Assembly (NCBI GenBank): GCA_037349105.1
Contig: JAYJMM010000037.1
Span: forward strand, 2,976,001 to 3,040,000
From: Limnomonas spitsbergensis
Taxonomy: Eukaryota; Chlorophyta; Chlorophyceae; Chlamydomonadales
Direction: 5' to 3'
DNA length: 64,000 bases
Below the pieces are notes generated by a model. That model made no database searches. It was given only the letters and a program-made list of their open reading frames with translations, and was not told where the DNA came from. A program made the position numbers and the translations under genes. Positions 5,001 through 26,337 of the stretch are shown here, in pieces; the stretch's first letter is position 1, and every line of letters begins with the position of its first letter.

Positions 5001-8000
5001 GCCTTGCTTGCAGGCTGTGAAGAGAGCTTCGGCACCGCCTCCTTCATCAAGCAGGCCCTCTCCCGCAGCAGCGCCGCCCGCCAAGGCCGCCAGCGGTGCG
5101 AACGGGCAGCCGCAAGCACCGGCCGCATCCTCCTCCAAAGCCGCAAAGCAGCAGAAGCAGCAGGATGATGTCGAGACGCTCGACTGCGCCGCCCAACAGC
5201 AGCAGCAGTCCGGGCGGTGCGCGCCGGCAGCTGCTCCAGCTGGCGTGCGAGGCTCCGGAGCCGCTGGCGCCTCACCTGCCGCTGCCGCAAAACCAGCCCC
5301 CGCTGCTGCGCAGCAGGGCGCCGCTCCGCCTGCCATGCAGGGCTCGTCCTTCAACGCATCCCTGTCCATACAGATGGCAGTCACCCAGGTGCGTTCAATT
5401 GGGTCTCGGAGCCGATCCACAGTGTTTAGTGTTAAGTGTGCACCAGAGCTCCTTTGACAGGCGGCGGGGCAGCCGCCACCGGGCCGGCCTTGACAGGCCT
5501 GCGGCTTGTGGCCTCGACAGGCCTGCGGCTAGTGGCCCAAGCAGCATGGCCTGCTGCACTAGGCTCATGCTGCTGTAGTCCGTGATGTAGCTGAAGTGTA
5601 GCTCACAAGTGCAAAGATTTCCACTGGAGCTGGCACGGAGTGCGATCACCTCAGACTGCCTTTTTTCTCTTGCTAGACTGATGACAAGCGTCCGGAAGAG
5701 ACATGTACACAGTACCGGCACCTATTTGTGTGTGTGCGGTATATGCAGGGCAGTCTACGTGATGTATCATCCCTTGCAAATAAGTAAACAGCTCTGGACT
5801 GTGCATTGAATGTTCACAGGTTAACAACGGAATGGTGGGAGAGGCTAAGAAGCTGCTGGACCGGGTCATGCAGGGCAGGCTGCATGATACACCACCTCTT
5901 TCAAATTAGTAAACAGCCCTGGACTCATGGACTGTGCTCTTGAATGTCTTTAGATTAACAATGGGAAGGTGGACGAGGCTGAGAAGCTGCTGGACCAGGT
6001 GCTGAAGAGCAGCCCGCGTGAGCTGGGCGGGCTCATTGCAAGAGGCACGGCACGGGCGTTGAAGCGAGACCTGACAGGTGAGCTAGTTGTTTGATTCCTC
6101 CTGGGACCTGCAGGAAAATTAGCTGGGGGGGCTCAAATCACAGGGCACGGCATGGGTGCTGAAGTGGTATGTAATGGGTGAGTTTTTTTACTGTGGTATG
6201 TGATGGGTGACTTTATTTTACCGTGGTACGTGATGGATGCATTCATTTTACCTGTTGTTTAGAGTGTACGGGCTAGCATGCGGGTCCCTGATGACTCGAA
6301 ACACCCATGTACATTCGCTGTTCCCCCCCCTCCCGTCTGCCCCTGCCTGCCCATTCTTTTGAAACCGACCTCACCCTATTTGTACAGCCTACTACACTAC
6401 CCTGGCCCACCCCTCTTGCGCCAGCCCGCTTCCAGTCCACCAACCTATCCCCGGTATACAACCGACCCACCACTGCCTCCCCTCTCCCCCCGTCCACCAG
6501 CATCACAGCTTCTGTCGCCCCCCCACCCCCACCCCCCCACCCATCCACGTGTCTGCTTCCCCCCCCCCACACACCCACTACCTACCGCCCGTGTCTATTG
6601 CTTTGCCCCATACACGACCACCACATCGTCCTTCCCCCATACACCCCTTCTGCCCCCCACTTCTCCCGCTCCATCCGTCCATCCCCCCCTCGCCTCCTGT
6701 CCAACGCAACCGCCTACTCCCCCTCACACTCCCTCCTGGTGACCCTTCTCCCCCAGCTCCTCCTGCCCCTCCCCCCTGCTCCCCCCCTCCCTTACTTTAA
6801 CCTGCTCCCCCCCGCGCCCACCTGCAGGCGCCATCTCCGACTTCAGCGTCGCCATTGAAGTGGAGCCACGCTACGCCGACACTTGGAAACGGCGCGGCCA
6901 AGCCCGCAGCGCCCTCGGGGAGCAGGACTCAGCGTTGGCAGACCTGACTAAGGCCCTGGAGCTCATGCCCCTCCTGGGGCAGGACTCCAACACCTCGCGG
7001 GCCGAGTGCCTGTTGGAGAAGGCCATGATCCATCAGAAGCGGCGGGACTACCGGCGGGCTTGCACAGAGCTCCAAGCGGCGGTGAAGATCGAGACGAACA
7101 ACCATCAGATCTGGAACGTGCTGGGGCTGTGCAGCACTAGCCAGGGCGACATCAGGGACGGCGTGGCCGCTTACGAGAAAGCGGTGCAGCTCAAGCCGGA
7201 CCTTAAAGAGGCTTGGCTGAACATGGCGCAGGCGCTCAAGGAGGAGGGGCGGACCAAGGAGTCGGAGCGGGCGTTTGCCAAGGTGCTGGCGCTGGATGAG
7301 CCGGGCAACCCCAGCCTGCACGCCATGCGCGTCATGTCCCAGATGCGGCAGCAGAAGGGGGACCATACTGGCGCAATACGCATCCTGGACAAGGCAATTG
7401 AAGCGGGGAAGGACGATCTGGTGAGGGGGGGGCACGTCACACCAATCATTGATTGGGATACTGAGATTTGAATTGTCTTTACCTCAAGTATGAAATGATA
7501 TTCTCCTTTAAATGCTGTCCTCCAGGCATGATATCAGTAACTTTTGATTTTCGACTGGAAACTGGCGAGGATTGCCAATAATTGGTATCTGAATGCATGC
7601 CTCACCATTTTACTACGTAAATTATGAGGGGAGACAAAGCACATATACGGCAGCACAAGGGACGCGTGTGCCTTTGGTCTACGATGCGACCTGGGTTCGC
7701 CCCGACTGCTCTGAATCCGAGCAATGACCTTCCAGCGCCTCCCCCCTTGCTGCAGATGGTTGAGCTCCTGTACCAGCGTGCCATCTGCTACCACGCCTTG
7801 GGCTACATTCGGGACGCGGCGCGAGACTATGAGGCGTGTCTGTCCTGGAGCAAGGTAGTGTTTGGGGTTCAGAGTTGTTGGGGTTCGAGTATTAGGATAT
7901 GCCTTCCTGCAATTTGAGCAGTGGGGGAGGGGGGCGGCAATGGCGGTGACGCAGCACGAGACTATCCTGGAGTAAGGTGAGGTCTGGGCTTCAGAATTTG

Positions 8001-11000
8001 ACACAAAGTTTCTTGCAATTTTAGCAGGGGGCGGTGTCGGCGGTAACGCAAGTACGCAACCTGAGATTATAACTGTTGTTTGACCTTGTGCGAGGTTGGA
8101 CGTACAGGCAAGTGCTCACTGCCTCCGGTAGGGGTCAAGCAGGGGGTGCGGTGCGTGTGAACGTAGTCTCGGCCCAAGCTTGACAGTTGACGCTACCTCC
8201 ACACATCCCTGCGGGGTGCAGTAGTCTTTGCTTCTGTTTGAGGGGGGGGGTGTGTGCGGGGATCGGAGGATGAACCCTGACCCCCTCCACCCACTCCCTG
8301 TGCCCCTTCCTCAGTGGCACCAACGCCAGTGAGGCCACGCGGTCGCTGCAGTACATATCCTTCGTTATCCCTCCCTAAACCCTGAACCCCCTTACACCCT
8401 GAACCCCTCCACCCTCCTCCTGCTCCAGGGCACCAACATGGGCCAGAAGGCGTGGTCACTACAGTAGCTGTTCTACCGTATCCCTGAACCCCTCCACCCT
8501 CCTCCTGTTGCAGGGCACCAACGTCAGCGAGGAGACGCGGTCCCTGCAGTACCTTTCCTTCTACCAGAAGGACATGGCGCTGTACATGTACCGCAGCCTG
8601 GACCGGGGCATGCGAGACATTTGCATCGATGCAGAGATGCAGCCACTATTCAAGGTGTGGGGATGAGAGGAAGTGGAGGGGGGAGGGGGGAGGGTACATT
8701 ATAGTGCTGTTCATGTAACGCACATGCACCGGGGCATGCAGGACATTTGCATCAATGGCTTGTGGCATCAGCATTCAGCCGCTATTTAATGTGGGATGTG
8801 TGTGTGTGTGTGGGGGGGGGGAGTGTGTCCATGCATCAATGCTGAGATGCAGCCAATTTTCAGGAGGGGGGGTAATTCAAAGATGTTGGCGTTTCAAGGT
8901 GGGGAAGGGGGGAGGAGGGGCGGGTGTGCCAAGGGGCATGCGCTATGCCCGCACCCACCCATGCTCCCACTGTTGCTCGCACCCATGCCCACACTTATGT
9001 CCGCACCCACCCAGGCCCACACTTATGTCCGCACCCACCCAGGCCCACACTTATGTCGGCACCCACTCATGCCCAGACTTATGCCCGCACTCACCCAGGC
9101 CCACACTTATGCCTGCACCCAGGCCCACACTTTTGCCCACACCCACCCATTCCCACAGGAGCTCTGGTGCAAAAAGGGTGCACCCACTGCTGAGCTCGTT
9201 GCGCAGTACACGGCTCAGCAGCCAGTGCCAGCCAGCCCGCCCCTGCCGCCGCCCCGACCTGATGCCGCACTGCTCGGCCCACTCACCACGCTGGCTGGCA
9301 GGCTCGGGTCGCTGCTCCAAAACACCCACCAGGTGCGCCTTTGTGTCAAACCGCATGCGCACCGCGGTTTAATTCAGCTATGCATCAGCTACATTGCAGC
9401 TGATTAGGGGAGGGGGGTCTGGTACAACTTGCCCTGATGCTGGAGTCACCGGCTATGGACAGTCCAAGGTATGGTCCCTATTAGCCAAGTGGCGGCTTCC
9501 TGACACCTGCCTGTGCCCGGTCCCTTGACTGAGGTCGTGATTTGTAGCCGAAGCGCCCTCTAATAAGCCCAGATGCTACCTTCTGCAAGAGCACCAGTAC
9601 ATGTATATTTTCCATACCTGCTGTTTCTCTGCAGGGCATTCTGTCCAATGGCCCATCCCTGCTCTATCTATTGACCATCTGCCCATGATGCATCTGTACC
9701 TATCTATGTCTTGTTACGTCTGCGCCACCTCTACGCAGAGCTTCCTGCCCAATGCCTGCCTGCAACGCGCTTCCGGGTGTGCCACGATAGAGCTGGCCCT
9801 CACGCCCCTTTCCATGTCTCTTTTCAGGGCTTCCTGCCCAATACCCGCCTGCAACGCGCGTCCGGGTTTGCCACGTTAGAGCTGGCACAGGCTGTGAAGG
9901 GGCTGGTGGCCGCGCGGCGTGCAGGCAACACCGTCTGGGTCCGCAGCGAAGGTAGTACCGTTCAGGTAAGCTGGCTGGGTCTGGGCCAGAGTAAGGCTGA
10001 GCTGGCTTTAGGCAGGGCAGGGGGTGCTGGGGTAGGCGGGGGTGTCTGAGGGCAGGCTGTCAAGGGGTTGGTGGCCGTGCGGCAAGCAGGGAACAGTGTC
10101 TGGGTACGCAGCTAAGACAGCACTGTGCAGCTGGGCTGGCTGCAGCTGAACTGGCTAAACGCAGGGCATAGGGTACGTTGGGTAGGGCAGGCTCCTTTAT
10201 TCCTCGGGACATGCCAGGGATGTACAGCCAGGATGTACCGCCTAGGATGTATTGCCAATAAAAGACTGGCCAGAATGTACTGCCAGGTGTTGTGATAGAC
10301 ACCCTGCTGCACTAGGTGGAACACGAGCTGATCTGAGCTCATGTGAAGCAGATCTGTGCTCGCTGTGAATCGGATCCTTGGAGGATTTGTGCTTGTGCCA
10401 AGCGCCCAAACAGATACTTGCTTCTCTTTATCAGGTTTAAAGCGGATATGTGCTTGTCTTGAGCGGATTTCACATGGATCTGTGCCTAACGGCCTATCTG
10501 TGAAGGATCTGGGCTAATTTGAAGCAGGTTTGAAGTGGATTTGTCCTTCTTATCAGCAGATCTGTGGCAGATCTGTGCCTGATTAGGTACAGATCCGCCA
10601 CAGGAGGCGGATCTGAAGTGGATCTGTGGATGACCACAATACGCTGATCTACTTTGTTCTCATCTTGGCAGGCGGGGGCGTCGGGTCGACATCAGTTTGG
10701 GTGGCGTGATGCAATGGACATCGTGGTGAAGTGGCGGCAGCTCAGCGAGCCAAACGACCAGGTGGGGAGGGAGAGTGGGGGCGAGCCTTTCTCCGAAGGG
10801 GGACAGGGGGAGGGCAGCGATCAAGCATTTCTCCAAAGGGGGAAAGGAGGAGGGCAGCGATCAATCATTTTCCCAAAGGAAGAACTCTTTGGTGCAAGCC
10901 CAACTATCAAGGGAGGAGGCAGCGCAGGGGTGCGGCTAGTAAAGGGTAGGGAGGGTGTCGAGATGGGGAGAGGACATCTGGGGAGATGGCTGTTTGGCTG

Positions 11001-14000
11001 GACTTGTCATGCCTTCGTACATATCTTTACGGTCCTGCCCCTCACCTTGTTGATCCATTCAATGATACCGGTTGCTATGTCTCTTGCCTGGTGATTTTGT
11101 ACTGTTTTGCGACGAGGCAGGAGCATAGCTGTATTTGTTTTATTCTTTGCTGCAGGTGGTGTGTGTGTGTCAGGGGGGGGGGGGGGTTTTTTCTCCAACT
11201 TCATTTTAAAACTGCCAACCTGGTGTAAAATTACATACCATACGTACTGTGAATGTTCCCTGCTGCTTGTTGTGTCTGGGGCCTACTGATGTGGGACCGG
11301 TTCGCAAGTATGTGTTTCTGTCTGGCTTTGCAGGGTGTGTGTGGATAGGCCTGAACCCCACGACCTTGTCGGCATACAAAACGCTATTTATTTCAACATT
11401 TGAACTTACGTCTACATGCAAACATTTGTTTTCTTACATCGTTTGTTACAGGTGGTATTGGGTGGGCATGCTCATGCAACCAAGATGGTTTGCTAATGTA
11501 TGCGTTTCTGTTTCCTCTTCTGCTGCAGGTGGTATTGGGTGGGTATGCTCATGCAACCGAGATGGTTTGCTAATGCATGCGTTTCTGTTTCCTCTTCTGC
11601 TGCAGGTGGTATTGGGTGGGCATGCTCATGCAACCGAGATGGTTTGCTAATGCATGCGTTTCGGTTTCCTCTTCTGCTGCAGGTGGTATTGGGTGGGCAT
11701 GCTCATGCAACCGAGATGGCTTGCTAATGCATGCGTTTCTGTTTCCTCTTCTGCTGCAGGTGGTATTGGGTGGGTATGCTCATGCAACCAAGATGGTTTG
11801 CTAATGCATGCATTTCTGTTTCCTCTTCTGCTGCAGGTGGTATTGGGTGGGCATGCTCATGCAACCGAGATGGTTTGCTAATGCATGCGTTTCGGTTTCC
11901 TCTTCTGCTGCAGGTGGTATTGGGTGGGCATGCTCATGCAACCGAGATGGTTTGCTAATGCATGCGTTTCTGTTTCCTCTTCTGCTGCAGGTGGTATTGG
12001 GTGGGCCTGCTCATGCAACCAAGATGGTTTGCTAATGCATGCGTTTCTGTTTCCTCTTCTGCTGCAGGTGGTATTGGGTGGGCATGCTCATGCAACCGAG
12101 ATGGTTTGCTAATGCATGCGTTTCGGTTTCCTCTTCTGCTGCAGGTGGTATTGGGTGGGCATGCTCATGCAACCGAGATGGTTTGCTAATGCATGCGTTT
12201 CGGTTTCCTCTTCTGCTGCAGGTGGTATTGGGTGGGCATGCTCATGCAACCGAGATGGTTTGCTAATGCATGCGTTTCTGTTTCCTCTTCTGCTGCAGGT
12301 GGTATTGGGTGGGCATGCTCATGGAACCGAGATGGTTTGCTAATGCATGCGTTTCTGTTTCCTCTTCTGCTGCAGGTGGTATTGGGTGGGCATGCTCATG
12401 CAACCGAGATGGTTTGCTAATGCATGCGTTTCGGTTTCCTCTTCTGCTGCAGGTGGTATTGGGTGGGCATGCTCATGCAACCGAGATGGTTTGCTAATGT
12501 ATGTGTTTCTGTTTCCTCTTCTGCTGCAGGTGGTATTGGGTGGGCATGCTCATGCAACCGATATGGTTTGCTAATGTATGTGTTTCTGTTTCCTCTTCTG
12601 CTGCAGGTGGTATTGGGTGGGCATGCTCATGCAACCGAGATGGTTTGCTAATGTTTGTGTTTCTGTTTCCTCTTCTGCTGCAGGTGGTATTGGGTGGGCA
12701 TGCTCATGGAACCGATATGGTTTGCTCATGCATGCGTTTCTGTTTCCTCTTCTGCTGCAGGTGGTATTGGGTGGGCATGCTCATGCAACCGATATGGTTT
12801 GCTCATGCATGCGTTTCTGTTTCCTCCTCTGCTGCAGGCGGTATTGGGTGGGCATGCTCATGCAACCGAGATGGTTTGCTAATGCATGTGTTTCTGTTTC
12901 CTCTTCTGCTGCAGGTGGTATTGGGTGGGCATGCTCATGCAACCGATATGGTTTGCTAATGCATGCGTTTCTGTTTCCTCTTCTGCTGCAGGTGGTATTG
13001 GGTGGGCCTGCTCATGCAACCGAGATGGTTTGCTAATACATGCGTTTCTGTTTCCTCCTCTGCTGCAGGTGGTATTGGGTGGGCCTGCTCATGCAACCGA
13101 GATGGTTTGCTAATACATGCGTTTCTGTTTCCTCTTCTGCTGCAGGTGGTATTGGGTGGGCCTGCTCATGCAACCGAGATGGTTTGCTAATGCATGTGTT
13201 TATGTTTCCTCTTCTGCTGCAGGTGGTATTGGGAGGGCATGTTCATGCAACCGAGATGGTTTGCTCATGCATGCGTTTCTGTTTCCTCTTCTGCTGCAGG
13301 TGGTATTGGGTGGGCATGCTCATGGAACCGAGATGGTTTGCTAATGCATGCGTTTCTGTTTCCTCTTCTGCTGCAGGTGGTATTGGGTGGGCATGCTCAT
13401 GGAACCGAGATGGTTTGCTAATGCATGCGTTTCTGTTTCCTCTTCTGCTGCAGGTGGTATTGGGTGGGCCTGCTCATGCAACCAAGATGGTTTGCTAATG
13501 CATGCGTTTCTGTTTCCTCTTCTGCTGCAGGTGGTATTGGGTGGGCATGCTCATGCAACCGAGATGGTTTGCTAATGCATGCATTTCGGTTTCCTCTTCT
13601 GCTGCAGGTGGTATTGGGTGGGCATGCTCATGCAACCGAGATGGTTTGCTAATGCATGCGTTTCGGTTTCCTCTTCTGCTGCAGGTGGTATTGGGTGGGC
13701 ATGCTCATGCAACCGAGATGGTTTGCTAATGCATGCGTTTCTGTTTCCTCTTCTGCTGCAGGTGGTATTGGGTGGGCATGCTCATGGAACCGAGATGGTT
13801 TGCTAATGCATGCGTTTCTGTTTCCTCTTCTGCTGCAGGTGGTATTGGGTGGGCATGCTCATGCAACCGAGATGGTTTGCTAATGTATGTGTTTCTGTTT
13901 CCTCTTCTGCTGCAGGTGGTATTGGGTGGGCATGCTCATGCAACCGAGATGGTTTGCTAATGTTTGTGTTTCTGTTTCCTCTTCTGCTGCAGGTGGTATT

Positions 14001-17000
14001 GGGTGGGCATGCTCATGGAACCGATATGGTTTGCTCATGCATGCGTTTCTGTTTCCTCTTCTGCTGCAGGTGGTATTGGGTGGGCATGCTCATGCAACCG
14101 ATATGGTTTGCTCATGCATGCGTTTCTGTTTCCTCCTCTGCTGCAGGCGGTATTGGGTGGGCATGCTCATGCAACCGAGATGGTTTGCTAATGCATGTGT
14201 TTCTGTTTCCTCTTCTGCTGCAGGTGGTATTGGGTGGGCATGCTCATGCAACCGATATGGTTTGCTAATGCATGCGTTTCTGTTTCCTCTTCTGCTGCAG
14301 GTGGTATTGGGTGGGCCTGCTCATGCAACCGAGATGGTTTGCTAATACATGCGTTTCTGTTTCCTCCTCTGCTGCAGGTGGTATTGGGTGGGCCTGCTCA
14401 TGCAACCGAGATGGTTTGCTAATACATGCGTTTCTGTTTCCTCTTCTGCTGCAGGTGGTATTGGGTGGGCCTGCTCATGCAACCGAGATGGTTTGCTAAT
14501 GCATGTGTTTATGTTTCCTCTTCTGCTGCAGGTGGTATTGGGAGGGCATGTTCATGCAACCGAGATGGTTTGCTCATGCATGCGTTTCTGTTTCCTCTTC
14601 TGCTGCAGGTGGTATTGGGTGGGCATGCTCATGGAACCGAGATGGTTTGCTAATGCATGCGTTTCTGTTTCCTCTTCTGCTGCAGGTGGTATTGGGTGGG
14701 CATGCTCATGCAACCGATATGGTTTGCTCATGCATGCATTTCTGTTTCCTCCTCTGCTGCAGGTGGTATTGGGTGGGCATGCTCATGCAACCGAGATGGT
14801 TTGCTAATGCATGTGTTTCTGTTTCCTCTTCTGCTGCAGGTGGTATTGGGTGGGCATGCTCATGCAACCGAGATGGTTTGCTAATGTTTGTGTTTCTGTT
14901 TCCTCTTCTGCTGCAGGTGGTATTGGGTGGGCATGCTCATGGAACCGATATGGTTTGCTCATGCATGCGTTTCTGTTTCCTCTTCTGCTGCAGGTGGTAT
15001 TGGGTGGGCATGCTCATGCAACCGATATGGTTTGCTCATGCATGCGTTTCTGTTTCCTCCTCTGCTGCAGGCGGTATTGGGTGGGCATGCTCATGCAACC
15101 GAGATGGTTTGCTAATGCATGTGTTTCTGTTTCCTCTTCTGCTGCAGGTGGTATTGGGTGGGCATGCTCATGCAACCGATATGGTTTGCTAATGCATGCG
15201 TTTCTGTTTCCTCTTCTGCTGCAGGTGGTATTGGGTGGGCCTGCTCATGCAACCGAGATGGTTTGCTAATACATGCGTTTCTGTTTCCTCCTCTGCTGCA
15301 GGTGGTATTGGGTGGGCCTGCTCATGCAACCGAGATGGTTTGCTAATACATGCGTTTCTGTTTCCTCTTCTGCTGCAGGTGGTATTGGGTGGGCCTGCTC
15401 ATGCAACCGAGATGGTTTGCTAATGCATGTGTTTATGTTTCCTCTTCTGCTGCAGGTGGTATTGGGAGGGCATGTTCATGCAACCGAGATGGTTTGCTCA
15501 TGCATGCGTTTCTGTTTCCTCTTCTGCTGCAGGTGGTATTGGGTGGGCATGCTCATGGAACCGAGATGGTTTGCTAATGCATGCGTTTCTGTTTCCTCTT
15601 CTGCTGCAGGTGGTATTGGGTGGGCATGCTCATGCAACCGATATGGTTTGCTCATGCATGCATTTCTGTTTCCTCCTCTGCTGCAGGTGGTATTGGGTGG
15701 GCATGCTCATGCAACCGAGATGGTTTGCTAATGCATGTGTTTCTGTTTCCTCTTCTGCTGCAGGTGGTATTGGGTGGGCCTGCTCATGCAACCGAGATGG
15801 TTTGCTAATGCATGCGTTTCTGTTTCCTCTTCTGCTGCAGGTGGTATTGGGTGGGCCTGCTCATGCAACCGAGATGGTTTGCTAATGCATGCGTTTCTGT
15901 TTCCTCCTCTGCTGCAGGTGGTATTGGGTGGGCCTGCTCATGCAACCGAGATGGTTTGCTAATACATGCGTTTTTGTTTCCTCTTCTGCTGCAGGTGGTA
16001 TTGGGTGGGCCTGCTCATGCAACCGAGATGGTTTGCTAATGCATGTGTTTCTGTTGCCTCTTCTGCTGCAGGTGGTATTGGGTGGGCATGCTCATGCAAC
16101 CGAGATGGTTTGCTAATGCATGCATTTCGGTTTCCTCTTCTGCTGCAGGTGGTATTGGGTGGGCATGCTCATGCAACCGAGATGGTTTGCTAATACATGC
16201 GTTTCTGTTTCCTCCTCTGCTGCAGGTGGTATTGGGTGGGCCTGCTCATGCAACCGAGATGGTTTGCTCATGCATGCGTTTCTGTTTCCTCTTCTGCTGC
16301 AGGTGGTATTGGGTGGGCCTGCTCATGGAACCGAGATGGTTTGCTAATGCATGCGTTTCTGTTTCCTCTTCTGCTGCAGGTGGTATTGGGTGGGCATGCT
16401 CATGCAACCGATATGGTTTGCTCATGCATGTGTTTCTGTTTCCTCTTCTGCTGCAGGTGGTATTGGGTGGGCATGCTCATGCAACCGAGATGGTTTGCTA
16501 ATGTATGTGTTTCTGTTTCCTCTTCTGCTGCAGGTGGTATTGGGTGGGCATGCTCATGCAACCGATATGGTTTGCTAATGTATGTGTTTCTGTTTCCTCT
16601 TCTGCTGCAGGTGGTATTGGGTGGGCATGCTCATGCAACCGAGATGGTTTGCTAATGTTTGTGTTTCTGTTTCCTCTTCTGCTGCAGGTGGTATTGGGTG
16701 GGCATGCTCATGGAACCGATATGGTTTGCTCATGCATGCGTTTCTGTTTCCTCTTCTGCTGCAGGTGGTATTGGGTGGGCATGCTCATGCAACCGATATG
16801 GTTTGCTCATGCATGCGTTTCTGTTTCCTCCTCTGCTGCAGGCGGTATTGGGTGGGCATGCTCATGCAACCGAGATGGTTTGCTAATGCATGTGTTTCTG
16901 TTTCCTCTTCTGCTGCAGGTGGTATTGGGTGGGCATGCTCATGCAACCGATATGGTTTGCTAATGCATGCGTTTCTGTTTCCTCTTCTGCTGCAGGTGGT

Positions 17001-20000
17001 ATTGGGTGGGCCTGCTCATGCAACCGAGATGGTTTGCTAATACATGCGTTTCTGTTTCCTCCTCTGCTGCAGGTGGTATTGGGTGGGCCTGCTCATGCAA
17101 CCGAGATGGTTTGCTAATACATGCGTTTCTGTTTCCTCTTCTGCTGCAGGTGGTATTGGGTGGGCCTGCTCATGCAACCGAGATGGTTTGCTAATGCATG
17201 TGTTTATGTTTCCTCTTCTGCTGCAGGTGGTATTGGGAGGGCATGTTCATGCAACCGAGATGGTTTGCTCATGCATGCGTTTCTGTTTCCTCTTCTGCTG
17301 CAGGTGGTATTGGGTGGGCATGCTCATGGAACCGAGATGGTTTGCTAATGCATGCGTTTCTGTTTCCTCTTCTGCTGCAGGTGGTATTGGGTGGGCATGC
17401 TCATGCAACCGATATGGTTTGCTCATGCATGCATTTCTGTTTCCTCCTCTGCTGCAGGTGGTATTGGGTGGGCATGCTCATGCAACCGAGATGGTTTGCT
17501 AATGCATGTGTTTCTGTTTCCTCTTCTGCTGCAGGTGGTATTGGGTGGGCATGCTCATGCAACCGAGATGGTTTGCTAATGCAAGCGTTTCTGTTTCCTC
17601 TTCTGCTGCAGGTGGTATTGGGTGGGCCTGCTCATGCAACCGAGATGGTCTGCTAATGCATGCGTTTCTGTTTCCTCCTCTGCTGCAGGTGGTATTGGGT
17701 GGGCCTGCTCATGCAACCGAGATGGTTTGCTAATACATGCGTTTTTGTTTCCTCTTCTGCTGCAGGTGGTATTGGGTGGGCCTGCTCATGCAACCGAGAT
17801 GGTTTGCTAATGCATGTGTTTCTGTTGCCTCTTCTGCTGCAGGTGGTATTTGGTGGGCATGCTCATGCAACCGAGATGGTTTGCTAATGCATGCATTTCG
17901 GTTTCCTCTTCTGCTGCAGGTGGTATTGGGTGGGCATGCTCATGCAACCGAGATGGTTTGCTAATACATGCGTTTCTGTTTCCTCCTCTGCTGCAGGTGG
18001 TATTGGGTGGGCCTGCTCATGCAACCGATATGGTTTGCTCATGCATGCGTTTCTGTTTCCTCTTCTGCTGCAGGTGGTATTGGGTGGGCCTGCTCATGGA
18101 ACCGAGATGGTTTGCTAATGCATGCGTTTCTGTTTCCTCTTCTGCTGCAGGTGGTATTGGGTGGGCATGCTCATGCAACCGATATGGTTTGCTCATGCAT
18201 GTGTTTCTGTTTCCTCTTCTGCTGCAGGTGGTATTGGGTGGGCATGCTCATGCAACCGAGATGGTTTGTTAATGTATGTGTTTCTGTTTCCTCTTCTGCT
18301 GCAGGTGGTATTGGGTGGGCCTGCTCATGCAACCGAGATGGTTTGTTAATGTATGTGTTTCTGTTTCCTCTTCTGCTGCAGGTGGTATTGGGTGGGCCTG
18401 CTCATGCAACCGAGATGGTTTGCTAATGTATGCGTTTCTGTTTCCTCCTCTGCTGCAGGTGGTATGGGTGGGCCTGCTCATGCAACCGAGATGGTTTGCT
18501 AATGCATGCGTTTCTGTTTCCTCTTCTGCTGCAGGTGGTATTGGGTGGGCATGCTCATGCAACCGAGATGGTTTGCTAATACATGCGTTTCTGTTTCCTC
18601 TTCTGCTGCAGGTGGTATTGGGTGGGCATGCTCATGGAACCGATATGGTTTGCTCATGCATGCGTTTCTGTTTCCTCCTCTGCTGCAGTTGGTATGGGTG
18701 GGCCTGCTCATGCAACCGAGATGGTTTGCTAATGCATGCGTTTCTGTTTCCTCCTGCTGCAGGTGGTATTGGGTGGGCCTGCTCATGCAACCGAGATGGT
18801 TTGCTAATGTATGTGTTTCTGTTTCCTCTTCTGCTGCAGGTGGTATTGGGTGGGCATGCTCATGCAACCGATATGGTTTGCTCATGCATGCGTTTCTGTT
18901 TCCACCTCTGCTGCAGGTGGTATGGGTGGGCCTGCTCATGCAACCGAGATGGTTTGCTAATGCATGCGTTTCTGTTTCCTCTTCTGCTGCAGGTGGTATT
19001 GGGTGGGCCTGCTCATGGAACCGAGATGGTTTGCTAATGCATGCGTTTCTGTTTCCTCTTCTGCTGCAGGTGGTATTGGGTGGGCATGCTCATGCAACCG
19101 AGATGGTTTGCTCATGCATGTGTTTCTGTTTCCTCTTCTGCTGCAGGTGGTATTGGGTGGGCATGCTCATGCAACCGAGATGGTTTGTTAATGTATGTGT
19201 TTCTGTTTCCTCTTCTGCTGCAGGTGGTATTGGGTGGGCCTGCTCATGCAACCGAGATGGTTTGTTAATGTATGTGTTTCTGTTTCCTCTTCTGCTGCAG
19301 GTGGTATTGGGTGGGCCTGCTCATGCAACCGAGATGGTTTGCTAATGTATGCGTTTCTGTTTCCTCCTCTGCTGCAGGTGGTATGGGTGGGCCTGCTCAT
19401 GCAACCGAGATGGTTTGCTAATGCATGCGTTTCTGTTTCCTCTTCTGCTGCAGGTGGTATTGGGTGGGCATGCTCATGCAACCGAGATGGTTTGCTAATA
19501 CATGCGTTTCTGTTTCCTCTTCTGCTGCAGGTGGTATTGGGTGGGCATGCTCATGGAACCGATATGGTTTGCTCATGCATGCGTTTCTGTTTCCTCCTCT
19601 GCTGCAGTTGGTATGGGTGGGCCTGCTCATGCAACCGAGATGGTTTGCTAATGCATGCGTTTCTGTTTCCTCCTGCTGCAGGTGGTATTGGGTGGGCCTG
19701 CTCATGCAACCGAGATGGTTTGCTAATGTATGTGTTTCTGTTTCCTCTTCTGCTGCAGGTGGTATTGGGTGGGCATGCTCATGCAACCGATATGGTTTGC
19801 TCATGCATGCGTTTCTGTTTCCACCTCTGCTGCAGGTGGTATGGGTGGGCCTGCTCATGCAACCGAGATGGTTTGCTAATGCATGCGTTTCTGTTTCCTC
19901 TTCTGCTGCAGGTGGTATTGGGTGGGCATGCTCATGCAACCGATATGGTTTGCTCATGCATGTGTTTCTGTTTCCTCTTCTGCTGCAGGTGGTATTGGGT

Positions 20001-23000
20001 GGGCATGCTCATGCAACCGAGATGGTTTGTTAATGTATGTGTTTCTGTTTCCTCTTCTGCTGCAGGTGGTATTGGGTGGGCCTGCTCATGCAACCGAGAT
20101 GGTTTGTTAATGTATGTGTTTCTGTTTCCTCTTCTGCTGCAGGTGGTATTGGGTGGGCCTGCTCATGCAACCGAGATGGTTTGCTAATGTATGCGTTTCT
20201 GTTTCCTCCTCTGCTGCAGGTGGTATGGGTGGGCCTGCTCATGCAACCGAGATGGTTTGCTAATGCATGCGTTTCTGTTTCCTCCTCCTGCTGCAGGTGG
20301 TATTGGGTGGGCATGCTCATGCAACCGAGATGGTTTGCTAATACATGCGTTTCTGTTTCCTCTTCTGCTGCAGGTGGTATTGGGTGGGCATGCTCATGGA
20401 ACCGATATGGTTTGCTCATGCATGCGTTTCTGTTTCCTCCTCTGCTGCAGTTGGTATGGGTGGGCCTGCTCATGCAACCGAGATGGTTTGCTAATGCATG
20501 CGTTTCTGTTTCCTCCTGCTGCAGGTGGTATTGGGTGGGCCTGCTCATGCAACCGAGATGGTTTGCTAATGTATGTGTTTCTGTTTCCTCTTCTGCTGCA
20601 GGTGGTATTGGGTGGGCATGCTCATGCAACCGATATGGTTTGCTCATGCATGCGTTTCTGTTTCCACCTCTGCTGCAGGTGGTATGGGTGGGCCTGCTCA
20701 TGCAACCGAGATGGTTTGCTAATGCATGCGTTTCTGTTTCCTCTTCTGCTGCAGGTGGTATTGGGTGGGCCTGCTCATGGAACCGAGATGGTTTGCTAAT
20801 GCATGCGTTTCTGTTTCCTCTTCTGCTGCAGGTGGTATTGGGTGGGCATGCTCATGCAACCGATATGGTTTGCTCATGCATGTGTTTCTGTTTCCTCTTC
20901 TGCTGCAGGTGGTATTGGGTGGGCATGCTCATGCAACCGAGATGGTTTGTTAATGTATGTGTTTCTGTTTCCTCTTCTGCTGCAGGTGGTATTGGGTGGG
21001 CCTGCTCATGCAACCGAGATGGTTTGTTAATGTATGTGTTTCTGTTTCCTCTTCTGCTGCAGGTGGTATTGGGTGGGCCTGCTCATGCAACCGAGATGGT
21101 TTGCTAATGTATGCGTTTCTGTTTCCTCCTCTGCTGCAGGTGGTATGGGTGGGCCTGCTCATGCAACCGAGATGGTTTGCTAATGCATGCGTTTCTGTTT
21201 CCTCCTGCTGCAGGTGGTATTGGGTGGGCATGCTCATGCAACCGAGATGGTTTGCTAATACATGCGTTTCTGTTTCCTCTTCTGCTGCAGGTGGTATTGG
21301 GTGGGCATGCTCATGGAACCGATATGGTTTGCTCATGCATGCGTTTCTGTTTCCTCCTCTGCTGCAGTTGGTATGGGTGGGCCTGCTCATGCAACCGAGA
21401 TGGTTTGCTAATGCATGCGTTTCTGTTTCCTCCTGCTGCAGGTGGTATTGGGTGGGCCTGCTCATGCAACCGAGATGGTTTGCTAATGTATGTGTTTCTG
21501 TTTCCTCTTCTGCTGCAGGTGGTATTGGGTGGGCATGCTCATGCAACCGAGATGGTTTGCTAATGCATGCGTTTCTGTTTCCTCCTGCTGCAGGTGGTAT
21601 TGGGTGGGCCTGCTCATGCAACCGAGATGGTTTGCTAATGTATGTGTTTCTGTTTCCTCTTCTGCTGCAGGTGGTATTGGGTGGGCATGCTCATGCAACC
21701 GAGATGGTTTGCTAATGCATGCGTTTCTGTTTCCTCTTCTGCTGCAGGTGGTATTGGGTGGGCATGCTCATGCAACCGAGATGGTTTGCTAATGCATGCG
21801 TTTCTGTTTCCTTTTGCTGCAGGTGGTATGGGTGGACCTGCTTACCCGTCGTGAGTTTGAACAGGGCTTTGGCAGCCACACGCCCATGTACACCGGGCAG
21901 ACCAAGTGCGTACGGTACTACATGAACTTCCCGCGGGCGCTGGCGCTACAGAAGCAGGTGTGTACAAGGGGGGAGGGGGGGAGGGGGGGAGGGTGTGTGT
22001 GGGGGGGTACTTTTTAGATTTGGGATTTTAAACTGAATTCGAGTGTTTTGTTACAGGTGCTTCTGCGGGAGGGCCACGCATTTGATGCCCAGAACCGGCC
22101 CATCCCGTGTGGGAGTCCGGAGCAGGTGGATGGGATCAAGGCTGCGTCAACGGCAGAGGACATGTATCAGGTGAGGGGAGGAAAGGCGGGGGGGATCTGC
22201 TGGGTGAGAGGGGAGGGGGGGATATACCAGGTGGGAGGAGGAGAGGGGGGGTGAGAGGACATGTACTGGTTGAAAGGAGGGCAGGAGGGGGGATGGACAT
22301 GTATCAGGGTGTAGAAAGAGGCAGGGGAGTGAGAGGACATGTCATAATTTAAAGGAGGGCAGGAAGGGGGTGGACATGTATCAGGGGGAGGACGGCTGGG
22401 GGGAGGAGGATAATAGGCAGGGGGGTGGTGTAGGGGAAGGGGGGAAGCGGAGGGGGGGGGGGGGGGGGGCTGGGAGGAAGCAGGCAGGAGAGGGTGAACC
22501 GCGGTGTCTCTCATGGTCGGCTGGGTAGCTCTCTCGGTTGGGCAGTTACGGTTCTTATGCAGGCAGGCACGCAGGGACAATCAGCGTTCATTCCTCTGTG
22601 GACCATCTCCCCCAGTAATTGTGTGGTGCATTGTTTCAGATTCGATGCCGGCTGATAGTCCTTCTACATAGCAGCCTGTTGGCCTCCCTCCCCTATTAGA
22701 TCCTGACCCTTACCCTCTGACTCTGACTCTTCCTCTGACCCCTCCCCCATAACTCCCCCACCCCCCACTCTCCCCCCCTGACTCCCACCCCTGAACCTCC
22801 CTCCCGAACCTTCCCCCCCTGACCCCCCTCCCTTGAATTTCCCTATTCGACCCTCTCTTGCCTTGCCCTATCGCAGGTGATCGGCATTGATAGCTGGGTG
22901 GTGGTGCCCATCAACAGCATCCACCGGCCCGGGCAGACGATGGAGGGCACCCGGCTCACACTAGTCAAGGTGAGCTTGAGACTCAGCTGGATTTATTTGT

Positions 23001-26000
23001 CCGTGCCCAAATCACCTTGCCTTATCAAACCCTGTTCCTGCTTGTCTGTGCTGCGTCTCCATGTCGGGCCCTGAACCCTGAACTCTGAACCTGTCCGCAG
23101 CCCCCCAGCGTGTGATGTGTGGGAGTTCTGCATCCGCACTCCAGACCCTAAACCTTCCACACACCAAACCCACAACCCACAACCCAAAACCTGCAGTGCC
23201 CCAGCCAGCTGGATGCGTACACCGTCTGACTTCCAGCTTGACGATTATTGAGTTCAACATCCGCACCCTCAATCATTCACCCTCAACCTGGCCCCGCGCC
23301 CAAAACACTAGACCGCAGTCCCCCGACCAGCCGTGTCTACCCAGTTCAGCATTTGCATCCTAAGTCTTGAATCCTGAACCCGCAGCCTCACCAGTGTTTC
23401 TTTTTTCCGTGACTCAGCTATATGTCAGCTACATGTCAGCTACACGTTGGCCTCTGGCTTGAGGCCCCATTTGCCGAGAGCCCTGCTGCTTTGGTCACCG
23501 GTCAAAGGCTGGTCCTGGTTTGTTCCCAATCGGGTCTTTGCCGGACGTGGGGTGGCCTGCCCAATGTGGACTTGTAGCAAGAAAAGACACGCTGAGCCTC
23601 CCAGCTAGCCCGTGGTCAGCATCCGCATCCTAGACCTTGCACCCTTCCCTCTGCACCTGCAGTCTCCCAATCAGCCGGATGCGTACGAGTTCAGCATCCG
23701 CACCCCGGTGACTCCCCCGCGCTGGAAGGAGTTTGATGCTGAGCTTGAGGCGGCTTTTGAGGCGGTCCTGCAGGCCTTGGTGGACGGTGCGTACGTGGGT
23801 TCAATTGGAGGACGGCAGCGTTACTTGTAATATACCTGATAGCTGCGTTTCAGCTTTGGTGGACCAGTCCTGATGCAGCGTGCATCTTTTTGTCCGGCCG
23901 CCGCTATAGGCCGATCAAGGTTTGGTCCACATTGGCCCAGTAGTGGTGTGACATTCTGCTGTCCAGAAGCTGTGTTATTACTGAACTTAAGCTGAAGAAC
24001 TCTAAATCGCTCCCCCACCACCACTTTTCCCCTTCTTTGCAGACGATCTGCCCCGGGCCGCCCCCCTCATCCTCAACTATGCCTACTACTGGTACAACTT
24101 CATGCCCCTAGCGCGAGGCACAGCAGCGTGCGGCTACGCCACTCTGCTCTCACTCTTCTGGGCTGCGGGCATGCCCGTCACGGCGGCCATTCCCAAGGGG
24201 ATCCAGGTGGGACCATGTTGGGAGTGCTGCTTCCCTTTGCTGCTGGAGGCGGGGGAGGGGCGTGGGGGGCAGTGAGGAGTGAGCAGGGGGAAGTGGCCTA
24301 GTGAGAGGTGGGTGGTGGTTGGGGGATGGGCCAGGAGTTCCAGGTGGGGCTTTTGAGGAGGGGAGAAGTGTTATATTTTGCGTGGCTCCGCAACAGCTCA
24401 GCTGCAGTTCACGGAAGTATTGGCCATCTGCCGGTGGCCTCAGACAATGCCTGTCATCAGTGCTTACTTTTGTGCGCATCAGCCCACTTATGGGGAGGCG
24501 GCCACCTCTGGAACCATGGGGATCAAATCTGGATTGGCCTACGCCAAGCCACTGATCTCAGTGTACCTAGGTTGCCTGTTGTATGCCACGTTGCAGCTGA
24601 AGTAGAGTGGAAGCGGCCTTTAATTAACGGCGTCTGTCATTCTGCTTGTGTAGCCTGCCGTAGGCCGGCCCAGGTTTGGTCCCTATATGGCTTTTTGAAG
24701 CCTTGGGATGTTCTGACAAAGGTGGCCTTGTAGCCAAGAAGTCTCTGGCAGTTTCACATGGCCCCTGCCCTCTTGTCTAGCCTCTCTTGAAGCCCTGCGC
24801 CCCTCAGCAGGCACGTCCTGAAAAAGAAATTGCCTTCGTTCGTATAAGGGACAGCAGGTTATAGCAGGTTTCAAAGCTCCGGTCTGTTCCCGTTTGTCAG
24901 CCTAATTTGTCTTGCGCTGCTGTGCGGACAAGGGTCTCATATTCCTCTTAGCGCCTCCTGAGAGGTGTAGGACGAGAAAAGGTCAAAACAAAACATATAC
25001 CGTACATCCTTCCACACCCTACCAGCCCCACGCGACTGAGCGTTTAGCAGGGCCATGCGGGTCTGCACCTTAATTAATCACTAACCACGATGCGCCCTCC
25101 CACACACGCTGATTTTTTGTTCATTACAGGTGGACTGGGAGGCCATTTTGAGCCAGCACCCCGATGACTTCGCAAAGACTGTAGGCAGTTGGCTATACCC
25201 CCCTCAAGCGCGGGGACAGCCAGCTACTGAGGCATCCATGAAGGTGAGCGTGTCCGTTGAGGAGACATTTTCGAAGGAGGCCTAAAGGCACAGGCGCGTT
25301 CAAGGGGAATGGCTGGGTGAGGGCAAAGCTGATACAATAGTGTGAATGATGTGAACAGTACATGCGTAAGAGAGCGTGGCTGGGGTGAGGGTTGGGTGAG
25401 GGTGAGGGTTGGGGAGGGGGGTGCAAGGAGGCTGATCAGTAGGGCCTCGCATCACCTGTTGCTTTTGTTCGTTTTGAGAGGTGAAATGTCATTGACCTGT
25501 CGCTAAGTGTAGACTTGTCCCCATTGTTCCGCCGTACTCTGTACTGTGCTGCTGCTGAATGGCATGAGCTAGCTGCCGTATGACCCTTTTACTACCCGTC
25601 TCGGCTGCGCTTTTTGTCATCCACCCCATTTGGATCTTGCGGTGTGCTGTTGTGGTATTGGTAGACAGTCTCATGGCCAGGCTTGAGGAAGACGTGCAGG
25701 GGAAATCTGCAACTCGAACAGATGCCGGGAAACAGGGAGGGAGGATAGATGGTTTGCCTCAAAGTGTGTGTGGCTATGGTCCTTTTATTGCACACCATAT
25801 CAACTTGGCGGGGCGGCCAACACTGGCTCGATGGGGACCAAACCTTGACAGACCTATGATGGTTGGTTTAAGCAGCTGGGCCTGCAACACCAGGCCCACA
25901 GGGCCGCGGGCTGTGATGTAGCTGATTGTAGCTGAAGGACTCTAAAATAATCTGTGTGGTGTAATGGTGTATGATGCCCTGTTGTAGGACTACCTCAATC

Positions 26001-26337
26001 GTTATCCCTAAACCACATGCATTCCCAGCCCTGGGTGGACAAGGTCTTATTTTCCCACTGGACAATTGCACAACGGGTAGTAGCTGAGTTGTTGCTGGAC
26101 CACCCTTCAATAATCAGTTTAGAACCGTGCATACCCGCTGGGCCTTGCTGAACGCTCGACCGCGTGGGGCTGGTAGGGAATGACTAGGCTCAATTCCAGC
26201 CCTTCAGTAATCAGTGGTGTGTTGCTCTGTTGCAGGACTTCCCGGATGTTGATTCCATGCCCCGGGTGGACGAGCTCCTGTTCTCACTGCGCAACCGGGT
26301 GGAAGCGCTGAATGACCCCTCGGCCAGAAGGATTTAG
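2099..26337 (+). CDS. SRFR1: SRFR1/TTC13-family tetratricopeptide repeat protein
   Basis: Nineteen exons join with consistent phases to 1,018 aa: 2099-2272, 2385-2474, 2813-2914, 4170-4280, 5014-5388, 5954-6077, 6828-7420, 7756-7854, 8514-8654, 9159-9332, 9828-9965, 10672-10761, 21823-21957, 22057-22170, 22877-22969, 23663-23786, 24043-24206, 25130-25243, 26236-26337. The start is the ATG opening an N-terminal TPR region. Residues about 95-280 are a Ser/Ala/Gln-rich linker. TPR units follow in exons 6-8 (for example ADTWKRRGQARSALG and IWNVLGLCSTSQGD). The C-terminal half carries family signatures: FYQKDMALY, PLFK-ELWCKK, WRDAMDIVVKWRQLSEPND, EFEQGFGSHTPMYTGQTKC, VRYYMNFPRAL, and an EFSIRTPVTPPRW segment. 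Plant SRFR1, a TPR negative regulator of immunity and transcription, has a similar length; TTC13 is the animal relative. Intron 2 starts with GC. An optional in-frame exon at 3228-3353 would add 42 hydrophobic residues but is uncertain. Function in an alga is inferred from the family only. Confidence 0.9.
2475..2812 (+). other. GC-AG intron 2 of the SRFR1-like gene
   Basis: Exon 2 ends in GAG followed by GCAAGT, and the intron ends CCCCAG before AACGCT. A GC donor with otherwise strong consensus is the usual minor variant of U2-type introns. Joining here keeps phase 0 and TPR continuity; the nearest GT alternatives do not. Confidence 0.7.
3708..4057. mobile_element. TA-flanked inverted-repeat MITE (family A)
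   Basis: The left end TACCGTAGATTCATATTGCC and the right end, read on the opposite strand (TACCGTAGATTTGAATAGCC), form imperfect terminal inverted repeats that extend inward through a TTCAGGTAT or CTCAGGTAT stretch. A second inverted pair lies inside (CCTCACCCCTAAG and its complement, plus CAGTTTTCAGTCG and its complement), so the whole element can fold on itself. No ORF is present. The flanking TA dinucleotides fit a TA target-site duplication of the Tc1/mariner (Stowaway-like) type, which is an inference. It sits inside intron 3. Related copies lie at about 7462-7650 (decayed) and 59053-59256. Confidence 0.72.
4287..4388 (+). repeat. Interstitial plant-type telomere repeats
   Basis: GTTTAGGGTTTAGGG occurs at about 4287 and again at about 4371, matching two short runs of the TTTAGGG unit. 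Both are inside intron 4 of the SRFR1-like gene. A third run is at about 41784. They are too short to be a telomere, and suggest either repair scars or simple slippage. Confidence 0.6.
4395..4565 (+). mobile_element. Dispersed SINE/MITE-like element (family B)
   Basis: It shares the family B landmarks in order: a GC-rich start with a CTGATGGGGACCAAACCTTG core, then a GGCGTACGGCC segment, a CAAGCAACAGGGC segment, and a tail with GTAGCTGAAGTGC. No ORF is present. It lies within intron 4. Confidence 0.6.
5453..5615 (+). mobile_element. Dispersed family B element
   Basis: It contains GCGGGGCAGCCGCC, a repeated ACAGGCCTGCGGCTWGTGGCC block, AGCAGCATGGCCTGCTGCAC and a tail GATGTAGCTGAAGTGTAGCT, matching the family B order. 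The internal ACAGGCCTGCGGC block is duplicated. It lies in intron 5. Confidence 0.55.
5745..6005 (+). repeat. Tandem duplication spanning the exon 6 acceptor
   Basis: Two adjacent units, about 5745-5870 and 5871-6005, share intron sequence (GCAGGGCAG, a CAAATWAGTAAACAGC stretch), an acceptor, and the start of exon 6. The first copy would encode VNNGMVGEAKKLLDRVMQ, the real one INNGKVDEAEKLLDQVLK. The first copy is cut at the duplication junction and runs into intron sequence with a stop, so only the second is used in the model. Confidence 0.85.
6270..6827 (+). other. Long pyrimidine-rich 3' part of intron 6
   Basis: About 550 bp dominated by C and T on the plus strand leads into the exon 7 acceptor. 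Long open frames here are consequences of the base composition. It may serve simply as an extended polypyrimidine tract. Confidence 0.6.
7462..7650. mobile_element. Decayed family A MITE copy
   Basis: The internal landmarks match the 3708-4057 and 59053-59256 elements: TTTACCTCAAGTATGA, AAATGCTGTCCTCC, GACTGGAAACTGGC and ATTATGAGGGGAGACAAAG. The terminal TACCGTAGATT motif is eroded. It lies in intron 7. Confidence 0.5.
8311..8880 (+). repeat. Partial copies of exon 9 on both sides of exon 9
   Basis: Upstream acceptor-side copies are at about 8311-8365 (TGGCACCAACGCCAGTGAGG) and 8403-8466 (GGGCACCAACATGGGCCAG); the second is preceded by the same CCCTCCACCCTCCTCCTG tract as the true acceptor. 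Downstream donor-side copies are at about 8724-8795 (GGGGCATGCAGGACATTTGC) and 8828-8870 (GCTGAGATGCAGCCAATTTT). All have substitutions, indels or stops and are not expected to be used. Confidence 0.82.
8943..9158 (+). repeat. About 28-bp minisatellite before exon 10
   Basis: Around seven degenerate units contain CGCACCCACCCAGGCCC and ACACTTATG. The final unit passes directly into the exon 10 acceptor (CCCATTCCCACAG). Like other arrays in this gene it abuts a 3' splice site. Confidence 0.75.
9365..9575. mobile_element. Composite or rearranged family B element
   Basis: It begins in reverse orientation (ATTCAGCTATGCATCAGCTA) and ends with forward tail sequence (TAGCCGAAGCGCCCTCTAAT). Between them is a degenerate AAGGTATGGTCCC core, so it looks like two partial copies joined. 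It lies in intron 10. Confidence 0.45.
9619..10175 (+). repeat. Partial copies of exon 11 on both sides of exon 11
   Basis: Upstream copies are at about 9619-9660 (GCAGGGCATTCTGTCCAATG) and 9729-9800 (CTTCCTGCCCAATGCCTGCC). A downstream copy is at about 10051-10175 (CAGGCTGTCAAGGGGTTGGT, then GTCTGGGTACGCAGC). The true exon is 9828-9965. The 9729-9800 copy is close in sequence but has an in-frame TAG. Confidence 0.82.
10320..10640 (+). repeat. Degenerate GATCTGTG-rich repeats in intron 11
   Basis: Repeated short motifs (GGATCTGTG, AGATCTGTGCCT, GAAGTGGATYTGT) at irregular 30-50 bp spacing fill the intron before exon 12. No ORF or splice site is conserved between units. Confidence 0.55.
11452..21822 (+). 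repeat. 77-bp satellite of 3' splice-site modules in intron 12
   Basis: About 134 head-to-tail units of 77 bp (some 74-76 bp near the right end) fill the intron between exons 12 and 13. Each unit begins GTGGTATTGGGTGGGC. It continues through an ATGCTCATGCAACCGAGATG segment and a branch-point-like TTTGCTAATGCATG, and ends in the tract TTTCCTCTTCTGCTGCAG. The spacing from CTAAT to CAG, about 30 nt, is normal for a U2-type 3' splice site. The last unit passes into exon 13, whose first bases (GTGGTATGGGTGGACCTGCT) are near-identical to a unit start. Decayed precursor-like units lie at about 11131-11175 and 11310-11360. The many ORFs of 75 or 152 codons are products of the repeat: 77 is not a multiple of three. 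Confidence 0.95.
22155..22450 (+). repeat. Donor-edge repeats downstream of exon 14
   Basis: The exon 14 end (GAGGACATGTATCAG followed by GTGAGG) recurs in degenerate form at about 22220, 22254, 22293, 22331 and 22371 (for example TGGACATGTATCAGGGTG). The copies are separated by G-rich spacers such as AAAGGAGGGCAGGAGGGG. Some retain a GTG-type donor. Confidence 0.78.
23085..23662 (+). repeat. Acceptor-edge copies upstream of exon 16
   Basis: Degenerate copies of the exon 16 acceptor and first 40-50 bases lie at about 23085-23150, 23186-23270, 23306-23361 and 23595-23640. They share CTGCAG or CCGCAG, then CCCCARCCAGC, GGATGCGTAC, and GTTCAGCATCCGCA-like segments. The real exon begins at 23663. 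A family B element (about 23405-23590) appears to interrupt the fourth copy. Confidence 0.8.
23405..23590 (-). mobile_element. Dispersed family B element, reverse
   Basis: The reverse orientation shows GACTCAGCTATATGTCAGCT at the left, then GCCCTGCTGCTTTGG, GGTCCTGGTTTGTTCCC and a GC-rich end. It lies in intron 15. Confidence 0.55.
23838..23990 (-). mobile_element. Dispersed family B element, reverse
   Basis: It contains AGCTGCGTTTCAGCTTTGG, CGGCCGCCGCTATAGGCC and AAGGTTTGGTCCACATTGGC. It lies in intron 16. Confidence 0.5.
24385..24745. mobile_element. Two nested or adjacent family B elements
   Basis: Family B landmarks occur in both orientations: CAACAGCTCAGCTGCAGTTC at the left, ACCATGGGGATCAAATCTGG and TTGGCCTACGCCAAGCCAC in the middle, ACGTTGCAGCTGAAG near 24590, and CCAGGTTTGGTCCC near 24670. 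This suggests two insertions. It lies in intron 17. Confidence 0.45.
25795..25950 (+). mobile_element. Dispersed family B element
   Basis: A good forward copy with GGCGGGGCGGCCAACACTGG, CGATGGGGACCAAACCTTGA, TTTAAGCAGCTGGGCCTGC and the tail TGATGTAGCTGATTGTAGCT. It lies in intron 18. Confidence 0.65.
25976..26090 (+). repeat. Decayed upstream copy of the last exon
   Basis: It aligns with exon 19 at an offset of about 248 bp: TGCCCTGTTGTAG then GACTACCTCAATCGTTATCC, CCCTGGGTGGACAAGGTCTT, and TTGCACAACGGGTAG matching the exon's CTGCGCAACCGGGTG. It has stops in every plausible frame. Flanking intron sequence is also shared. Confidence 0.8.
26127..26205 (+). repeat. Dispersed repeat family C, copy 1
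   Basis: GTGCATACCCGCTGGGCCTT, then CTGAACGCTCGACCGCG, GGGGCTGGTAGGG and a CTCAATTCCAGC end. A second copy is at about 29530-29607 in the same orientation. Confidence 0.6.

Follow-up and report, generated by a model that had tools for sequence, protein, structure and literature searches.

A 135-copy array of duplicated 3′ splice-site modules within one intron of an SRFR1-like gene in a green alga

Intron 13 of an SRFR1-like TPR gene in the green alga Limnomonas spitsbergensis contains a satellite whose units are 3′ splice-site modules. The gene lies in the 64,000-nucleotide window analysed here, which covers positions 2,976,001 to 3,040,000 of contig JAYJMM010000037.1 (assembly GCA_037349105.1). 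The array is real, sits within a single intron of a conserved gene, and runs on the plus strand from 11452..21822 as 135 head-to-tail units, in which unit positions 1–24 resemble the start of exon 14 and the remainder resembles the 3′ end of the intron. We read it as a minisatellite of the type called a mirage in amphioxus, produced by runaway duplication of a splice junction and most likely tolerated because the acceptor nearest the exon is the one that gets used. Taken jointly, this origin and this splicing outcome have a probability of about 0.75, as a rounded judgement.

Tandem repeat detection with Tandem Repeats Finder (TRF) places the array at 11449–21842, with a period of 77, 135.3 copies, and 95% matches. 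Units were then cut at the acceptor, CAG|NNGGTAT, which yields 135 units where an earlier note on this DNA had counted roughly 134; the coordinates and 77-bp unit given there stand. There are 48 distinct units, with lengths of 77 bp (123 units), 76 bp (5), 75 bp (2), and 74 bp (5), and 26 of the 77 columns vary by substitution. The terminal triplet is CAG in 135/135 units, and a yUnA branch-like motif lies 30–33 nt before the CAG end in every one of them, as CTAAT in 98, CTCAT in 29, and TTAAT in 8 (4 of the 98 CTAAT units were assigned from column counts after an over-strict pattern had matched 94 directly). The start of each unit, and of the exon, is directly preceded by CTGCAG in 135 of 136 cases, and only the first differs, with TTACAG at 11451; the succession of branch-like motif and CTGCAG described in the earlier note is thus confirmed. 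GT forms the first two bases of 127/135 units and is lost as GC in four and as TT in four, and the acceptor is followed by a donor-like GT (CAG|GT) at 128 of 136 junctions, again as the note had said of most units. The intron therefore offers 136 possible endpoints, namely 135 intronic acceptors and the authentic one at 21822.

Two other identities were considered for the repeat. It is not a coding repeat, since its length of 77 cannot be divided by 3 and a stop codon is met from every one of the 135 entry points. Introner elements occur as dispersed, near-identical copies across many genes (PMC9860276), and an introner or other dispersed element is rejected as far as exact copies are concerned: a 26-mer from the unit has 72 exact matches in the 260-Mb genome, and 72/72 fall within the intron-13 array, so that exact copies of this 26-mer are confined to a single locus.

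Splice-site strength was scored with donor and acceptor matrices built from 137 GT–AG introns of loci C123, C75, and C34 and of the SRFR1-like gene minus its array intron; GC-donor introns were dropped, and because the C75 and C34 models rest on paralogous proteins, some training sites may be wrong. The array acceptors are as strong as real ones. Their median is 13.6 bits (67th percentile of the 137 modelled acceptors), compared with 13.1 bits (62nd percentile) for the authentic exon-14 acceptor, which bears out the earlier claim of more than a hundred near-equal acceptors; the first acceptor, at 11451, scores 7.0 bits (18th percentile). This strength is not a matter of chance, because among 288 AGs counted over the 3′ half of the gene, real acceptors included, just one (0.3%) reaches the array median.

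The host gene was modelled by a purpose-written spliced alignment on the window minus the array interior, giving 20 exons over a coding span of 2114..26334 on the plus strand, with exons 3–6 less certain. A homolog search with the joined exon translations returns green-algal proteins first, the best being from Chlamydomonas eustigma (71% identity across 93% of the query), and these homologs point to a chlamydomonadalean host. Some members of the matched family are named SRFR1 or suppressor of RPS4-RLD1, and we take TTC13 to be the animal relative. Exon 13 (10672..10761, plus strand) ends in ...KWRQLSEPNDQ and carries the donor CAG|GTGGGGAG, which scores 12.7 bits (89th percentile). Intron 13 (10762..21822, plus strand) measures 11,061 nt, against a median of 441 nt for 101 introns in three well-modelled genes. 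Exon 14 (21823..21957, plus strand; VVWVDLLTRREFEQGFGSHTPM...) begins with VVWVDLL and ends at a donor of 10.4 bits (51st percentile). Because NDQVVW is uninterrupted across the join in the homologs from C. eustigma and C. reinhardtii, exons 13 and 14 can be assigned by homology to one gene. This upholds the earlier statement that the flanking exons share a conserved gene; the note's placement of the satellite inside one intron holds, with the exons it numbered 12 and 13 becoming 13 and 14 in the 20-exon model. GTG starts 5 of the 20 modelled exons (4170, 21823, 22057, 22877, and 25130), and for each of the four from 21823 onward the preceding exon has CAG as its last triplet, which makes the sequence at the exon join CAG|GTG.

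The start of exon 14, GTGGTATGGGTGGACCTGCTTA, agrees at 20 of 22 bases with the start of a 76-bp unit variant, GTGGTATGGGTGGGCCTGCTCA. The unit therefore spans the exon/intron boundary, comprising ~24 bp of the 5′ edge of exon 14 and ~53 bp of the preceding intron end. The exon-proximal part of the array (18459..21822, plus strand) is the sole part with exon-like GTATGGG units, which make up 11/54 of units 82–135 and 0/81 of the earlier ones (Fisher P 2e-5, for units that are not independent given block copying). Two adjacent 12-unit blocks of 924 bp at 13916..15763 (plus strand) are 100% identical, a third 924-bp block at 16611–17534 is 100% identical to both, and a second higher-order repeat at 18228..20065 (plus strand) consists of two 919-bp blocks that are 99% identical. 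These 12-unit higher-order repeats, at 99–100% identity, suggest recent block-wise exchange. An older, decayed junction copy lies upstream of the array at 11131..11167 (plus strand; TTTGCTGCAG|GTGGTG; E 0.006), with an AG at 11155 scoring 10.3 bits; in a comparison of the exon 14 edge with the intron upstream of the array, the best match has a Smith–Waterman (SW) score of 44 against a null maximum of 34. A possible further copy at 11296..11345 (plus strand; TATGTGTTTCTGT...TTTGCAG|GGTGTG) was spotted by eye only. In the proposed course of events, a local head-to-tail duplication would have copied ~53 bp from the end of intron 13 together with the ~24 bp that open exon 14, and unequal exchange, partly in 12-unit blocks, may then have expanded the unit to 135 copies lying on the intronic side of the boundary. 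We consider this mirage-type origin very probable, and the array itself would have no function.

Smaller copies of the same kind are found at other junctions of the gene. Decayed exon edges with their splice sites lie in the adjoining introns on both sides of exons 7, 10, and 12, and on one side of exon 17 and others. One such copy, comprising the exon 12 5′ edge and the adjoining acceptor, occupies 9729..9797 (plus strand, 87% over 69 bp), and similarity search places similar exon-edge copies, also on the plus strand, at 5795–5887, 8275–8363, 8397–8474, 10053–10142, and 23069–23142. Exons were also modelled for seven dynein heavy-chain genes from this genome, with 200 kb taken around them. 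Edge copies (SW ≥44) were counted in the SRFR1-like gene and in C123, C75, C122, and C86, excluding the array intron and any intron <160 nt. Of the 5′ edges 24/174 have a local direct copy, as do 37/172 of the 3′ edges, against 0/174 and 0/172 in the reverse-complement control; 59/62 edge copies span the junction, and AG is kept in 17/23 acceptor copies and GT in 27/36 donor copies. In the three best models, those with close homologs (the SRFR1-like gene, C123, and C119), 36/95 introns contain an edge copy and the reverse-complement control gives 1/190 edges, again with introns <160 nt and both giant-array introns excluded. Across eight gene models, with the first, weaker model of C119 used, 24/582 junctions lie inside a TRF array. 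The dynein gene at C122, a paralog-based model, has short introns (median 181 nt) and, in contrast to the remaining loci, hardly any edge copies (1/29 and 0/29).

Comparison windows in the same five genes are duplicated in 2/127 cases for exon interiors, 33/123 for mid-intron sequence, and 27/123 for intron just after the donor. A special targeting of splice junctions is thereby not supported: given the edge counts, the mid-intron count, and the empty control, exon edges are simply not spared by a duplication that is local, direct, and common in the modelled genes. Judged from those genes, junction duplication looks ordinary for this genome, and the genes examined show one route of intron growth, that of local head-to-tail duplication not sparing exon edges. 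A pattern search for triple TTGCAGGT arrays gives 2,441 matches over the two strands, compared with 69 when the pattern is reversed, but it says little about junction arrays because the matches listed, all on contig C4, are mostly minisatellites with units of ~15–19 bp. One of these contig C4 regions, G000:C4:4894647-4896421, is a ~19-bp minisatellite whose units TTGCAG|GTGAGAG hold a donor-like motif.

The mirror image of the intron-13 array occurs at the other kind of boundary. The minus-strand locus G000:C119:289501-319500 encodes a cytoplasmic dynein-2 heavy chain, with its best homolog in Chlamydomonas sp. UWO 241 and others named cytoplasmic dynein 1b or 2. At C119 gene coordinates 6442–12150 it holds a donor array of 86 copies of a 66-bp unit, AGCGGGTGCAG|GTGTGTGG..., the first copy of which is the end of exon 8 (6344–6452, ...EFIRVERVQ) with its donor; the next exon, 12525–12665, begins with IIASINPP. 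The exon 8/9 borders come out the same from two homologs, and in the UWO 241 protein ERVQIIASINPP runs on with no interruption. Exact recurrences of the eleven exon bases AGCGGGTGCAG number 79, and the 92 GCAG|GTG sites within or beside the array score a median of 12.5 bits (86th percentile) versus 11.1 for the authentic donor. At gene coordinates 1915–2345 the same gene carries a 32-bp × 13.5 array of acceptor-like ...ACAG modules that ends 5 bp before exon 2. Both 5′ and 3′ boundaries are therefore affected, by the acceptor array in the SRFR1-like gene, the donor array in dynein-2, and edge copies of both kinds. The derivation of the unit from the exon 14 edge, the decayed junction copies at other exons, and the donor array in another gene all go beyond the earlier note.

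In amphioxus, minisatellites of duplicated exon/intron boundaries are known as mirages and have been described in Adh3, the globin genes BflGb6 and BflGb9, PGBD5, and TnC (PMC3087553, PMC3902484). As described there, they are tandem boundary duplications at 3′ or 5′ edges in which many copies keep AG or GT and degenerate ones are intronic, and the algal arrays share these features. The earlier claim that a satellite of acceptor modules was novel falls because mirages have the same construction, and the kind of array is not new. What sets the algal case apart is the host lineage, a green alga instead of a cephalochordate, together with the copy number and the many junction copies in the modelled genes: the 135 and 86 copies compare with 3 and 6 in BflGb6 and 2–7 in PGBD5, a comparison that does not include Adh3. 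Amphioxus arrays have evidence from reverse transcription PCR (RT-PCR) and length polymorphism, whereas those of the alga are known from the sequence of one assembly. A literature search found no algal case of a boundary-duplicating minisatellite, none of this size, and no acceptor array beyond those cited. The minisatellite of human 6-16/IFI6, with short 12-nt units in few copies, provides multiple splice donors and is alike in supplying many splice sites of one kind.

Human UBC offers a parallel to the junctions themselves, with tandem units bounded by AG|GT that are each a potential donor or acceptor (PMC10809524). Its nine 228-nt units are coding and in frame and their use is proven, whereas the 135 units of the alga are 77 nt, non-coding, and out of frame, with a weak donor and predicted sites. 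In the potato RdRp gene, an intron was gained via tandem duplication of AGGT-bearing sequence (PMC4974935), an idea credited to Rogers (PMC3087553). The algal case is similar in that the tandem duplication includes splice signals, but here an old intron has been lengthened and no new one gained, and the joined protein at the junction is unchanged. In C. reinhardtii and Volvox carteri, tandem repeats show a statistical excess toward intron ends, near intron–exon junctions; the portion of that survey drawn on here reports densities and motifs, and arrays of whole splice-site modules are not among them (PMC3887541).

Splicing would normally link exon 13 to the acceptor immediately before exon 14; we propose that this acceptor is chosen because it alone has behind it a whole exon ending in a reasonable donor. 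For 133/136 acceptors, those lying >330 nt before the exon 14 donor, the best donor 30–330 nt downstream reaches at most 7.8 bits, against 10.4 for that of exon 14. Use of an upstream copy would lead to a stop codon and probably to RNA decay: unless further sequence is spliced out, each of the 135 intronic acceptors leads into a stop ahead of exon 14, in 95 cases after 14 codons. We put this outcome, with the exon-proximal acceptor chosen and mis-spliced RNA decaying, at somewhat better than even odds. Several observations weigh against it or against the account as a whole. Six of 17 other SRFR1 exons also have no donor above 7.8 bits within 30–330 nt, and the donor of exon 14 also serves the final two acceptors inside the intron (21670 and 21747); the test is thus partial, and for these reasons exon definition as the chooser is only plausible. 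Unit columns 69–77 (CTGCTGCAG) are free of substitutions (P 0.019, one of nine sets examined), which could hint at selection on acceptor function; they alone stood out among the nine, and the signal is too weak to support selection acting on the array. Junctions, moreover, are not favoured targets, as the duplication rate of mid-intron windows is no lower.

Recursive splicing at ratchet points uses an acceptor directly followed by a donor and proceeds through stepwise intermediates. Were the array a ladder of such dual-specific sites, each CAG|GTGGTA would serve first as acceptor and then as donor, the intron would shorten step by step, and the mRNA would be identical whatever the copy number. 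Excision between any two of the 128 CAG|GT sites leaves no residue, and CAG|GTGGTA, at 6.1 bits, is weak yet within the range of the modelled donors (12th percentile of 137); tandem dual-specific sites are in use in human UBC (PMC10809524). The sequence nevertheless lacks the +5 G present in 122/137 modelled donors (+5 T occurs in 5/137), GT has been lost in two ways in the array, and a 77-nt step falls below the minimum length of 99 nt among the 137 introns, so that steps would need at least two units. Four gaps of 42–75 nt in the weaker models C122 and C86, outside the 137-intron set, are probably alignment errors. With a 12th-percentile donor and a step below the shortest intron, a one-unit step is unlikely, while multi-unit steps are compatible with intron lengths; of the weak recursive splice point proposed earlier, the AG|GT junction stands and its usability is doubtful. 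The recursive reading has its precedent in UBC and finds little support in the array, and we consider it improbable that the spliceosome meets long acceptor and donor arrays in many genes and removes them stepwise. If it did, splicing would be blind to copy number and junction satellites could grow without limit.

Strong acceptors might instead act as a regulatory trap, catching many transcripts that then meet stops and decay, so that copy number would set gene output. The slight advantage of the array acceptors over the authentic one (median 13.6 vs 13.1 bits), the stop reached from 135/135 of them, and the earlier transcription of the upstream copies all fit such a role, but RT-PCR in amphioxus is said to suggest that mirage arrays leave splicing undisturbed (PMC3087553), and we give it a small chance. 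That the array exists but had its length and blocks inflated by the assembler is more doubtful still. The three identical 924-bp blocks leave room for an error in length; the 48 distinct units nevertheless follow an ordered pattern, with exon-like ones toward exon 14, the contig is 4.5 Mb long in a 124-contig assembly, and even a few units would be the same kind of thing. Junction duplication followed by use of the exon-proximal acceptor remains our preferred explanation.

How the spliceosome chooses among equal sites is an old question, the candidates being the site made first, the one backed by an exon, or the one reached by scanning from the branch point. One intron presents the same acceptor module 136 times and another presents a donor module 86 times, both in conserved genes, which makes this a natural test. 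Because the modules are near-equal and so often repeated, ordinary long RNA reads could supply the answer.

Other repeats lie further along the window. A degenerate repeat region rich in GGCA/GGCG covers 32347–33062, and a 43-bp × 44.6 minisatellite at 34998–36929 has no splice-site module obvious by eye. On the plus strand, 51891–57959 holds a 2022-aa open frame over 66-bp × 14, 60-bp × 36, and 129-bp × 3.4 repeats, probably a repeat-rich coding gene.

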